Assembly (NCBI GenBank): GCA_025210515.1
Contig: JAOARM010000040.1
Span: forward strand, 62,001 to 126,000
DNA from: Vallitalea sp.
Lineage (GTDB): Bacteria > Bacillota > Clostridia > Lachnospirales > Vallitaleaceae
Direction: 5' to 3'
DNA: 64,000 nt
The notes beneath the pieces were generated by a model, which was not told the DNA's origin, did not search any database, and saw nothing but the letters and a program-made list of their open reading frames with translations. Shown in pieces: positions 59,672-63,653 of this stretch; positions within the stretch are counted from its first letter, which is position 1, and each line of letters begins with the position of its first letter. Both the position numbers and the translations under genes were made by a program.

Positions 59672-59698
59672 GGGGGCTTCGTTTATACGATAGCCCCC
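59672..59698. terminator. Bidirectional terminator after leuS
   Basis: gggggct (59672-59678)/agccccc (59692-59698) between convergent genes. Confidence 0.8.
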
Positions 59699-59704
59699 TG
59701 CTTG

Positions 59705-59983
59705 CTACATCATTTCCATCATTTTCACAACCATATCTAGCTTGTTTTTATCTGAAGTAGATAGATTATTTTTCATAGTATCTACAATTAGAGATGATTC
59801 TTGTTTAGTGAACTGTAGACCGCTTTGTTTCATTTTTACACCATATGAAAAAAGTACTTGAACTTTTTGTTCCATTGGTTTGCCAGACATATCATTTAAC
59901 ATATCAACCATTATCTTTAGTTTCTTTGGACTAATATCTTTGAATGCATCGTTATTTAAGATATTATGTGAATTATCGTTCAT
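59705..59983 (-). CDS. Small helical protein, unknown
   Basis: 92 residues, no signal, predicted all-helical and Met/Lys-rich (MVDMLNDMSGKP near 25-40, closing KLDMVVKMMEMM). No family recognised. The end (SSLIVDTMKNNLSTSDKNKL) has the same rhythm as the C-terminal part of its operon partner at 60000-60530: LI-xx-M…K-xx-D/ID…M. Good SD (gaaagggtg); 16 bp after that partner, so the two are co-transcribed. Role unknown. Confidence 0.65.
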   Translation of the reverse strand: MNDNSHNILNNDAFKDISPKKLKIMVDMLNDMSGKPMEQKVQVLFSYGVKMKQSGLQFTKQESSLIVDTMKNNLSTSDKNKLDMVVKMMEMM

Positions 59984-59999
59984 TACCTACACCCTTTCA

Positions 60000-60530
60000 T
60001 TAATTATTATTAATTAGATTTTTGAGTTTTTCTATTAACTCATCTTGATTTAGATTATCTTCATTTGTTGAATCTTGTTGGGAAGTATTAGGATTATGAG
60101 CAACTTGATAGTATTCAGGTTGATTAATGGATTTCATTAAAGTTTTTAATGTATACATATTAAGTATAATATCAATTGTTTTTCTGTTTTTTTCTGAGCA
60201 GTGAGAGCGAATTGCTTGCAATAGCTGTTGAGGATTATTATTAGATTTATTTAACTCAGAAATTTCTGTTACAGAATTATTATTATATAAGTTCATTGTT
60301 TTAGTTAACTCCATAAACTTAACAAATACTGCTAGTTTTTTTTGGACTTCTAAATTCATATATGGAATTGATGCTTTTATAATATTCATTTCTTGGCTAT
60401 TAATCACATTATCTATCTCAAAAGTATTATTCTCATCTACAGGAACGTTATTAGAATCAGAAATTGATTTGAAAAGTTCTATCATATTAGTCATTTTACT
60501 AAAGTTAGAATTTGGATTAGTAGAGTCCAT
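60000..60530 (-). CDS. Helical protein, unknown (paralogous core)
   Basis: 176 residues from ATG 60530, 9 nt after AGGAGG; longer in-frame starts lack an SD. Mainly helical with Asn-rich linkers. The stretch QQLLQAIRSHCSEKNRKTID followed by YTLKTLMKSI resembles QLLKAIQPMANEQLSKDID…INVLKMFIDNL of the divergently transcribed gene at 60717. No membrane segment, no signal. Family unknown; I recall no characterised homologue. Confidence 0.62.
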   Translation of the reverse strand: MDSTNPNSNFSKMTNMIELFKSISDSNNVPVDENNTFEIDNVINSQEMNIIKASIPYMNLEVQKKLAVFVKFMELTKTMNLYNNNSVTEISELNKSNNNPQQLLQAIRSHCSEKNRKTIDIILNMYTLKTLMKSINQPEYYQVAHNPNTSQQDSTNEDNLNQDELIEKLKNLINNN

Positions 60531-60716
60531 ACTATATTGCCTCCTATAATGGTTATCTATAATATTGTATGTGAACAATACTCATTAATTTACAATTACT
60601 TATAAAAACTTTATTTTCATGGCATGTATTATATAGAGATACCAATTATTTTAGATGTGTTACATAATATATATGTTATACATATATTAAATTAAGGAGT
60701 ATTATTGGAGATATAA

Positions 60717-61208
60717 ATGACTCATAATAATTTAATAAATGATACAATAGCTCTTGTAACTGACAGTATTGATGTTCAAGGTTATTTTGATAATATAAGA
60801 AAATCAATTGTTGAAATAACAAAAGAACAGATATTGAACAATGTATTAGCATCTAGTAATGAATATAAACACAATGAAAGTGATAATGTACAATTGTTAA
60901 AAGCAATACAACCTATGGCAAATGAACAACTAAGTAAGGATATAGATAAATTATCCGAAGTATTTGAAGATATAAATGTTCTGAAAATGTTTATAGATAA
61001 TCTATTAAAAGATAATAAAGATAAAAATGAAGATATATCAGATGATGATGAAAACAAAATTATTGAAAAAAGAGGAAATCTAATAATAGAAGATAATACA
61101 GTATATGAGGTAGACGAGAAGTGTAAAGCAAATATTAATTCAAATAGTAGTGAAAAGAAAGCAAATACTGATATTTTAGCTTTATTATTTTATATGATAT
61201 TGAATTAA
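60717..61208 (+). CDS. Helical protein, unknown (paralogue of 60000-60530)
   Basis: 163 residues from ATG 60717 (SD ttggag at 60705-60710). Helical N-terminal half with QLLKAIQPMANEQLSKDID, an acidic Asp/Glu/Asn-rich middle, and a hydrophobic C-terminus (TDILALLFYMILN) that could touch the membrane. Divergent from the two-gene helical operon, convergent with the 61-residue hydrophobic gene. Function unknown. Confidence 0.6.
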   Translation: MTHNNLINDTIALVTDSIDVQGYFDNIRKSIVEITKEQILNNVLASSNEYKHNESDNVQLLKAIQPMANEQLSKDIDKLSEVFEDINVLKMFIDNLLKDNKDKNEDISDDDENKIIEKRGNLIIEDNTVYEVDEKCKANINSNSSEKKANTDILALLFYMILN

Positions 61209-61235
61209 CGTATCTTTTAATCTTAAATAGAATAA

Positions 61236-61264
61236 ATAGGGGGTTTGCCTAATACCCCCATTAT
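61236..61264. terminator. Bidirectional terminator
   Basis: gggggt (61240-61245)/accccc (61255-61260), with AT pairs flanking, between convergent small genes. Confidence 0.65.
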
Positions 61265-61275
61265 TCTATAGCAAT

Positions 61276-61461
61276 TTAATACCCACCATCATTACCCATC
61301 ATCATAAGTAAAAGCATGAGCATAAGCATATTGTTATCCATAAAGCCACCCATGCCAGAACCACTGCCCATATTTCCGCCGCTAAGTAATAATAATAACA
61401 TAAGTAACATCATATTATTACTGCCGCCACCTAAAAAATTATTAGCTGTCACATCGCTCAT
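61276..61461 (-). CDS. Small Met/Leu/Gly-rich hydrophobic protein
   Basis: 61 residues from ATG 61461 (SD ggagg, 6 nt away; the longer ATG lacks one). Two very hydrophobic blocks, NMMLLMLLLLL and MLMLMLLLMMM, separated by a Gly/Ser/Met linker and ending NDGGY. Looks like a small hairpin membrane peptide or self-assembling coat-like protein. It resembles the 56-residue protein at 63024-63194 in plan (block, Gly-rich linker, block, short Gly/Asn tail ending in Tyr). Confidence 0.65.
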   Translation of the reverse strand: MSDVTANNFLGGGSNNMMLLMLLLLLSGGNMGSGSGMGGFMDNNMLMLMLLLMMMGNDGGY

Positions 61462-61670
61462 AGTTTGCCTCCATAAATCCTTTCTTAACATTTTATGTTA
61501 TAAGGCTTGTTTCCTATGTATATTTAATTCAAAAAGTTATTTTATTCTTCATTAAATCATATACCTTTTAGTAATAGAATAAAATATAATAATTAAGATA
61601 TTGAAGTTATATTTAATTAGATTACAACTAGTTAATTATGCAAATATCTAAATTAGAAATAAGGTGATTT

Positions 61671-62906
61671 ATGAAAAATAAACAGAAGCTATTAATGTCT
61701 TTTTTGGTAAGAAATATGATGAATAAAAGTAACAATAAAGTATGTAGCGAAGAAATGCTAAATACTAATGCTGATAAGCATGTACAAGTAATTGTTAATT
61801 GTAGCAAAAACAATGAGTTTGAAAAAGAGTTTGAAAAAATTGGTATAGTGAAATACAAGCTTCCTATGATTAATTCCTATGTTCTTGAGTTGCCAGAAAA
61901 ATATGTTGTTGAATTAAAAGGAATTCAAGGCGTTGAAACTGTTGAAAATGATGCACTTATTACTGCTCAGATGGATGTTGCAAGGCAAACAATTAATAGC
62001 TTATGGGCTGATAGTGTTGGATTGACTGGTAGAGGAATTGGAATAGCAGTTGTAGATACAGGCATTTATCCTCATAAAGATTTAGTACTTAGTAGAAATA
62101 GAATAATAGGATTCAAAGATTTTGTCAATGAAGTAGAATATCCATATGATGATAATGGACACGGAACTCATGTGGCAGGAATAATAGCTGGAAATGGAAC
62201 AGAAAGTAATGGGAAATATAGAGGAGTAGCTACTGATAGTAATATTATAGGTGTAAAAGTATTGGATAAAGATGGTGCAGGTAATATATCTGATGTGCTT
62301 GCAGGAATTCAATGGATTTTAGATAATAGAAAAAGATATAATATTAGAATAATTAATTTATCTGTAGGAATGAAAGATGTAGAAGGTGAAAAATCAGCAC
62401 TGGTAAGAGGTGTTAATGCAGCATGGGATAATGGATTAATAGTAGTTGCAGCAGCAGGAAATAATGGACCAGATGCCAGTACGATAACTACTCCAGGGAT
62501 AAGTAGAAAGATTATAACAGTAGGTTCATCAGATGATGGAGAAACAGTTAAAATAATGGAAGACCTTATTTCTGATTATTCTGGTAGAGGGCCAACAAAA
62601 GAATGTATTAAAAAACCAGATGTTGTAGCACCAGGTTCTAATATTATTGCATGTAGCACTAATAAATCATATAAACCAAAAGAAAAGTATTATCCAAATA
62701 AAGATGTTGGATATATAAAAAAGAGCGGAACATCTATGGCAACCCCAATGATTAGTGGATGTATTGCCTTATTATTATCAAAATATCCTAATATGACACC
62801 GAAAGATATAAAAATAAAGTTAAAAGATTCTACCAATGATCTTGGATTTTCTCAAGAACAGCAAGGGTGGGGGTTAATAGACATAAAGAAATTACTTGAT
62901 AGATAG
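61671..62906 (+). CDS. S8 subtilisin-like serine protease, no signal peptide
   Basis: 411 residues. Residues 36-95 look like an I9 propeptide (HVQVIVNCSKNNEFEKEFEK…VVELKGIQGVETVENDALI). Catalytic triad Asp129 (VVDTGI), His164 (GHGTHVAG), Ser355 (SGTSMATP); oxyanion Asn264 (AAGNNGP). No secretory signal at the N-terminus, so it may act inside the cell or in the mother cell/spore, like Bacillus AprX. SD aaggtg. Surrounded by small hydrophobic and helical genes it may process. Confidence 0.92.
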   Translation: MKNKQKLLMSFLVRNMMNKSNNKVCSEEMLNTNADKHVQVIVNCSKNNEFEKEFEKIGIVKYKLPMINSYVLELPEKYVVELKGIQGVETVENDALITAQMDVARQTINSLWADSVGLTGRGIGIAVVDTGIYPHKDLVLSRNRIIGFKDFVNEVEYPYDDNGHGTHVAGIIAGNGTESNGKYRGVATDSNIIGVKVLDKDGAGNISDVLAGIQWILDNRKRYNIRIINLSVGMKDVEGEKSALVRGVNAAWDNGLIVVAAAGNNGPDASTITTPGISRKIITVGSSDDGETVKIMEDLISDYSGRGPTKECIKKPDVVAPGSNIIACSTNKSYKPKEKYYPNKDVGYIKKSGTSMATPMISGCIALLLSKYPNMTPKDIKIKLKDSTNDLGFSQEQQGWGLIDIKKLLDR

Positions 62907-62964
62907 AAATTTTCCTTACAATATTAAAGGTAGTACTTGTGCTATATACACTATCAATTACACT

Positions 62965-63006
62965 AGACTATAAAAAAGGGGCTTATTAAGCCCCTATTTT
63001 ATAGTC
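62965..63006. terminator. Long bidirectional terminator
   Basis: About 20-bp near-perfect palindrome: agactataaaaaaggggctt… pairs with …aagcccctattttatagtct with one mismatch. Sits between the protease gene and the convergent 56-residue gene. Confidence 0.85.
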
Positions 63007-63023
63007 TTTAATTTAATGATGGC

Positions 63024-63194
63024 TTAGTAATTGCCACCCATATTACCCATACCACCAAACATAATCATAAATAACATTAAGAAGAAAAATAGACTGTTTT
63101 CTGCAAAAGCACCTTTTCCACCACAGCTACCGCCTTCGTTAAACATAAGTAAGAAGAAAAATAAGAAAAACATATTACTAGAATTTGATTGCAT
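63024..63194 (-). CDS. Small Phe/Met/Gly-rich hydrophobic protein
   Basis: 56 residues, from ATG 63194 behind aagaggagg. Two aromatic-rich hydrophobic blocks (NMFFLFFFLLMF and SLFFFLMLFMIMF) are separated by EGGSCGGKGAFAEN, and the chain ends GGMGNMGGNY. Same layout as the 61-residue protein at 61276-61461, with Phe in place of Leu. Too short for standard gene prediction but has a perfect SD and its own terminator. Confidence 0.72.
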   Translation of the reverse strand: MQSNSSNMFFLFFFLLMFNEGGSCGGKGAFAENSLFFFLMLFMIMFGGMGNMGGNY

Positions 63195-63419
63195 AGTAAA
63201 CCTCCTCTTAGAATAAGTTAAATAAATCCTCAGTTATCATTACTTAATTGCATATTACTTTTATATGAAATTCATAATAAATTAAATATAATCTAAATAC
63301 TATATATAGCAAACTTGGTATCTATATATTGTATAAATGATTTATAATATGTAATTATGAAATTCTCATAAAGTATAATACATATTATGAGGAAAGGAGA
63401 TAATATGTGTTTGTTCGTT

Positions 63420-63644
63420 TTATAAGAAAATTAAACGACTTAGTTTATCTAAATCATTAATAAATTCATCGTTAAATATGAAGCTGTTATCATCATCAAT
63501 TAGAAGAATAAATAATAACAATAAAATAAATATATCATCATCATCATGATTAGCAGTAGTTTTTTTTGTACTAGCGCTCTTTGCATTTAAAAATTTTTTA
63601 GGGATATCTTCTAAACTATAAAAGGTTCTTATATTTTCAATCAA
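63420..63644 (-). CDS. Small acidic protein with hydrophobic segment
   Basis: 74 residues from TTG 63644 (aaagg 9 nt upstream; TTG 63653 lies directly against it). N-terminal part NIRTFYSLEDIPKKFLN, then a Lys/Ser/Thr linker, then a strongly hydrophobic segment (DDIFILLLLFILLI) bounded by Asp runs. Third hydrophobic mini-protein of the cluster. Coding status is less certain than the others. Confidence 0.45.
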   Translation of the reverse strand: MIENIRTFYSLEDIPKKFLNAKSASTKKTTANHDDDDIFILLLLFILLIDDDNSFIFNDEFINDLDKLSRLIFL

Positions 63645-63653
63645 GTCAATCAA

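Follow-up and report, generated by a model that had tools for sequence, protein, structure and literature searches.

Seven genes located next to leuS in Vallitalea sp. (hereafter P1 to P7, P5 being an S8 protease) very probably constitute a mother-cell sporulation locus, under the control of sigma-E and/or sigma-K. This reading is drawn from sequence: the linkage of the genes, promoters of the mother-cell type, co-occurrence with spoIVA, a repeat common to P1, P2 and P3, and the homology of P4 and P6. Expression of the cluster in the mother cell is well supported by these data. What is new here is an uncharacterised sporulation locus, rather than a new kind of biology.

The cluster spans positions 59705-63644 of the window, i.e. 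the whole stretch of 64,000 nucleotides analysed, which belongs to a genome of 3.5 Mb. The gene order, strands and associated signals are given in Table 1.

Table 1. Genes, promoter elements and hairpins of the cluster (positions in the window).
Feature	Position	Strand	Description
Hairpin leuS/P1	about 59672-59698		between genes
P1	59705..59983	-	helical, 92 aa; follows P2 in their common operon after 16 nt
P2	60000..60530	-	176 aa; two LLxAIxPYL-type alpha-hairpin repeats
P2 -10 box	60564..60571	-	CATACAAT; mother-cell type, conserved in the alignment of relatives
P3 promoter	60662..60689	+	sigma-K-like, AC-N17-CATATATTA; upstream of P3
P3	60717..61208	+	163 aa; one alpha-hairpin repeat, VYEVDxxC motif, short hydrophobic C-terminal tail
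Hairpin P3/P4	61239-61259		between genes
P4	61276..61461	-	61 aa double-block hydrophobic mini-protein
P4 -10 box	61490..61497	-	CATAAAAT; mother-cell type, conserved in the alignment
P5 (S8)	61671..62906	+	AprX-type S8 protease, 411 aa; D129/H164/S355 conserved
Hairpin S8/P6	62976-62996		terminator-like; common to the convergent S8 and P6
P6	63024..63194	-	56 aa double-block hydrophobic mini-protein
P7	63420..63644	-	74 aa, acidic, one hydrophobic block, TTG start; kept in five genomes

All the features that a first-pass annotation had described in the cluster are present, and corrections were limited to start codons. P2 begins at the ATG 60530 behind AGGAGG (176 aa) instead of at the TTG 60578; P7 begins at the TTG 63644 (74 aa) instead of at 63653, because this start agrees with the homologues, which begin M-I-E-x-I-N. 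The SDs, all reported as strong, are so for P2, P4 and P6, but weaker for P1, P3, S8 and P7. Separate terminators had also been proposed: the hairpins do exist, but they lie between leuS and P1, P3 and P4, and S8 and P6, so that each serves one convergent pair, and a terminator-like T-run follows only the last of the three. The seven ORFs were considered real genes and not chance ORFs, and we agree, since they are kept with unchanged orientation in other genera, P7 and P3 being exceptions in some genomes.

This conservation was assessed on loci from related genomes, searched by tblastn with the seven proteins. Beside leuS the genes keep their order and orientation in seven genomes, six of the Vallitalea genus and one (G004) of another genus; in G018, of the Vallitalea genus, the cluster is interrupted by contig ends. 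In a third genus (G002 and G003) the cluster is in two parts, one still near leuS with P1, P2, the tail of P3 and P4, the other with S8 and P6, relocated jointly to another place. According to the alignment P1 is kept in the nine cluster genomes out of nine. No P7 was detected by tblastn in G016, G002 and G003. In the latter two P3 lacks its helical part and is reduced to a mini-gene for the VYEIDxxC tail (L042, L044), which suggests an independent function for this tail. Small repeat proteins built of VNGTTVPSSWHGTPPLSNHDD units are present in G003 (L044:10637-11029 and L045:7054-7407), adjoining the P4 mini-protein gene and the relocated S8-P6 pair; they were not found in the other loci examined.

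P1, P2 and P3 have one alpha-hairpin repeat in common, of the form LLxAIxPYLxxxxQxxIDxxxKxxEL, with two copies in P2 and one each in P1 and P3; profile comparison gives z 9-18 relative to permuted columns. When the small profiles of the Vallitalea family are aligned directly by hhalign, the result is suggestive only, too weak if taken alone. With broadened profiles the E-values are 5e-9 for P1 type a against type b, 4e-6 for P3 against P1b, 2e-5 for P3 against P2 and about 4e-5 for P1 against P2, and none of the 60 column-permuted controls reached any of the observed scores; the common core suspected at first reading of these helical proteins is thereby borne out. In the models the repeat consists of a short helix followed, after a turn, by a long one. 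In the AlphaFold model of P2 the helices are predicted at 46-57/60-83 and 100-108/113-135, and the pLDDT is 76-90 over most of the core; the model of P3 is poor overall (pLDDT 55.5) and usable for the hairpin 56-101 only. The P2 model has no match in the PDB at E <= 0.001 (Foldseek), and the P2 profile retrieves nothing above cut-off among PDB sequences.

The helical proteins also occur in other arrangements. P2 and P1 are fused into a single ORF in L091, and P1 relatives of 72-78 aa adjoin AprX in other families. The VYEVDxxC motif of P3 is VYEIDxxC in its relatives, and this VYEID part forms a stand-alone protein of 47-66 aa in G003, L081, L143 and L144. In L083:6621-8010 (G283), relatives of P2 and P1 directly adjoin a gene that we take to be spoVT-like. 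Three loci of other clostridia (L220:4206-5762, L221:4922-6345 and L130:1166-2046) contain a set in which no S8 gene appears within the stretch read; it is made of a one-repeat "LLYALKPYL" helical protein and a second helical protein, with in L220 and L130 an acidic/hydrophobic protein of the DDLLLVGLIVLL type and in L220 a double-block mini-protein as well. This set is probably a module related to the cluster.

P4 and P6, thought from the outset to follow the same block-linker-block plan, are indeed homologous (E 5.5e-12; z 14 against permuted columns). They belong to a wider family of mini-proteins about 46-82 aa long, in which two entirely hydrophobic blocks, each of about 10-13 residues (for instance DSLLFFFLLLVILF), flank a Gly/Cys/Asp linker with recurring DNS/DNN motifs. 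Copies lie near one another in several genomes, five in G051 and four in G161, and several close together in L228 and L232. L081 and L092 keep the leuS-linked half alone, and their P4 forms are Cys/Gly-rich. A third, acidic/hydrophobic mini-protein had been added to the group: P7 is present, but its homology to P4 and P6 is not supported, the P4/P6-type profile failing to recover it in the genome of the window. No Pfam or NCBIfam model, including those of the YjcZ-like tiny sporulation proteins, matched P4 or P6. The latter proteins are also very small, hydrophobic and linked to sporulation, but have one block instead of two. More generally P1-P4, P6, P7 and their relatives gave nothing above the Pfam and NCBIfam cut-offs, the protease being the only exception in the cluster.

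P5 is an S8 peptidase (PF00082, E 3.4e-59) whose triad D129, H164, S355 is invariant across 10 S8 homologues. By eye its N-terminus has a hydrophobic stretch of 7-10 residues and no canonical signal peptide. Bacilli sequences, 39-46% identical to P5, are among its 80 best relatives and nested in the S8 tree, which was built without a distant S8 outgroup. From their N-termini we take these Bacilli proteins to be AprX-like. AprX of Bacillus, about 400-440 aa long, has the S8 catalytic domain in common with P5, and probably also the lack of a canonical signal sequence, but its N-terminal region differs; the Bacilli aprX loci recovered are devoid of helical or mini neighbours, unlike the Vallitalea locus. 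The AprX family, without signal sequences, is taken as intracellular, and aprX of B. subtilis is reportedly dispensable for growth and sporulation (PMC3135529); the core sporulation set of this species includes it among the sigma-K genes (PMC3416734). Other S8 assignments were tried. The best NCBIfam match of P5 is the mycosin of type VII secretion (TIGR03921), with 156.2 bits for a cut-off of 278.75, and it was rejected. The germination protease Csp was rejected likewise (CspBA/CspC models, 81.6 bits versus 1250). CspB and CspBA of clostridia are, like P5, S8 proteases; they are made in the mother cell, the csp operon being under sigma-E (PMC3789822). Isp (CD2000) of C. difficile, a possible counterpart, is an intracellular serine protease under sigma-E control (PMC3789822).

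In C. difficile the sigma-E and sigma-K promoters have very similar -10 elements and differ at -35 (ATA or AC) (PMC3789822). A -10 box is found upstream of P2, P3 and P4 both in the window and in relatives, the conserved forms in the upstream alignments being CATACAATA (P2), CATATATTA (P3) and CATAAAATA (P4). The CATATA of the P3 promoter is invariant in nine genomes, including that of L081 which belongs to another family. For P6 the relatives have CATAAAATA or CATACAATA. In the alignments an AC lies 17 bases upstream of the -10 for P3, at -35, and for P6. The S8 and P6 genes of the window itself have no exact -10 match, but their relatives have one. Members of a mother-cell (sigma-E/sigma-K) regulon would carry a -10 CATA box with ATA or AC at -35, and the boxes of P2, P3 and P4, with the AC of P3, make these genes putative members. 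The motif set (CATAnnnTA or CATAnA[AT]T), picked after looking at the upstream alignments, occurs upstream of 57 of the 97 cluster genes and 13 of the 36 S8 genes versus 18 of the 231 control genes, and in a thinned set upstream of 31/51 cluster genes versus 7.3 expected. Because of this choice the cleaner test is that of 38 mini-protein genes, mostly from new genomes, 12 of which have the motif for 3.8 expected. Few motifs are found in the f8, f34 and f45 lineages.

The presence of the cluster follows that of spoIVA. Among 22 genomes of the Vallitalea family spoIVA is found in exactly the nine with the cluster and in none of the 13 others (Fisher 2e-6), and an AprX orthologue more than 60% identical shows the same split of 9 versus 13; at the genus level this amounts to three genera with and five without, so that there are fewer independent observations than the 22 genomes. 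The class-wide co-occurrence goes in the same direction but is weaker: spoIVA is present in 26 of 28 genomes with strong P2 matches (p 0.007) and in 43 of 48 with mini matches (p 0.002), versus 209 of 291 overall. In each test the genomes are related by descent, so that the p-values overstate independence. These presence/absence calls rest on incomplete genomes; G191 and G076, 92-94% complete, are positive for mini or helical proteins and have no spoIVA match.

The survey of the class covered 291 genomes. Strong P2 relatives (E below 1e-10) were found in 28 of them and mini-proteins in 48; hydrophobic profiles may catch membrane segments, and nearly all listed matches are short ORFs. About 70 genomes have weak matches to the P2 profile (E 1e-7 to 1e-3); most of these matches are shorter proteins of about 100-145 aa with a single repeat, which are probably related and were treated apart. 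Double-block mini-proteins lie beside helical proteins in many clostridial families, and in several of these beside the protease. According to the hit lists of two independent searches, a mini-protein and a helical protein are encoded within about 2.5 kb in 16 of the 34 genomes having both. The linkage of mini-proteins to S8 proteases, anticipated by the first-pass annotation, is encountered with AprX-type enzymes in other genera and families: S8 adjoins P1/P2/P3 relatives or mini-proteins in at least five families, and S8, P1, mini-proteins and P2 are together in L228 and in Alkalibaculum sporogenes (L149). The two outcomes named beforehand as counting against that annotation, lack of a common helical core and lack of a link between mini-proteins and S8, were both tested for and neither occurred. 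The pair of a mini-protein and a helical protein occurs in several genomes where the sequence read contains no S8 gene; the protease is therefore not an obligate partner.

Such pairs without S8 are also what one would expect if the locus merely gathered two or three independent mother-cell genes, AprX being a general mother-cell protease to which the mini-proteins and helical proteins are functionally unrelated. The many AprX genes of Lachnospiraceae and Bacillaceae without such neighbours, and the ability of the cluster to split in G002/G003, point the same way. But the recurrence of S8 with these partners in at least five families, and the fact that S8 and P6 are still paired at their new place in G002/G003, argue against independence, which we regard as a serious possibility though a somewhat improbable one.

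The alternatives placing the locus outside sporulation fare less well. Small hydrophobic proteins beside a protease whose best NCBIfam match is a mycosin could evoke a vegetative membrane-stress or peptide-secretion system, the protease freeing secreted peptides. This had been the second proposal for the cluster, next to a spore or mother-cell assembly; it is very improbable given the mycosin score far under its cut-off, the absence of a transporter and of apparent signal peptides in the cluster, the exact co-occurrence with spoIVA in the family and the mother-cell promoter motifs. Nothing was found in its favour by our analysis, and the -10 motifs and spoIVA support the spore or mother-cell proposal well. 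We give next to no credit to a RiPP or bacteriocin cluster in which P5 would be the S8 leader peptidase: the locus does encode a subtilase and small peptides rich in Gly/Cys, but neither modification enzyme nor exporter, and the peptides follow sporulation genes and are conserved across families instead of being hypervariable. Short hydrophobic ORFs, sometimes several close together as in L228 and L232, are also reminiscent of toxins of toxin-antitoxin systems; the two-block plan with its DNS/DNN linkers, the conserved location and the mother-cell promoters make this origin barely credible.

We thus retain a mother-cell sporulation locus, and it is fairly probable that it has some envelope-related role. 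The locus would be switched on in the mother cell by sigma-E and/or sigma-K. The repeat proteins of the P1-P3 type would act as cytosolic scaffolds, and P3, through its short hydrophobic C-tail, and AprX, through its short hydrophobic N-terminus, could lie at a membrane or at a hydrophobic surface. The mini-proteins would self-assemble into or onto an outer layer of the developing spore: blocks of about 10-13 residues fall short of the usual length of a membrane-spanning helix, so that assembly at a surface or in a layer would be their simplest use. Finally AprX might mature or remove some components late in sporulation, a step put forward as a hypothesis because the protease is linked in several lineages and absent from the mini/helical pair in others. 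That the products are themselves an envelope component is quite possible, if slightly doubtful; that AprX acts on its neighbours is rather unlikely. The same caution applies to the boldest version, which we think improbable as a whole, in which the mini-proteins would form a new class of spore-envelope proteins, self-assembling and distributed across the clostridia, with P1-P3-type scaffolds organising them and AprX maturing them in some lineages.

Chaplins and hydrophobins are small hydrophobic proteins, often Cys/Gly-rich, that are secreted and coat spores. The parallel with the mini-proteins is an analogy only, with no sequence relation shown, and the latter have no apparent signal peptide. 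If the boldest version were true, a chaplin- or hydrophobin-like principle would operate inside endospore formation, and AprX would gain its missing substrate. In the literature on small hydrophobic mother-cell proteins nothing was found concerning this locus. The spore envelopes of clostridia are not the same as those of Bacillus. Two protein families without Pfam or NCBIfam entry show the behaviour of mother-cell sporulation genes in many clostridial families, and some of their members are so short that usual gene calling would miss them. As partners or substrates of AprX, a protease listed under sigma-K, they are candidates.
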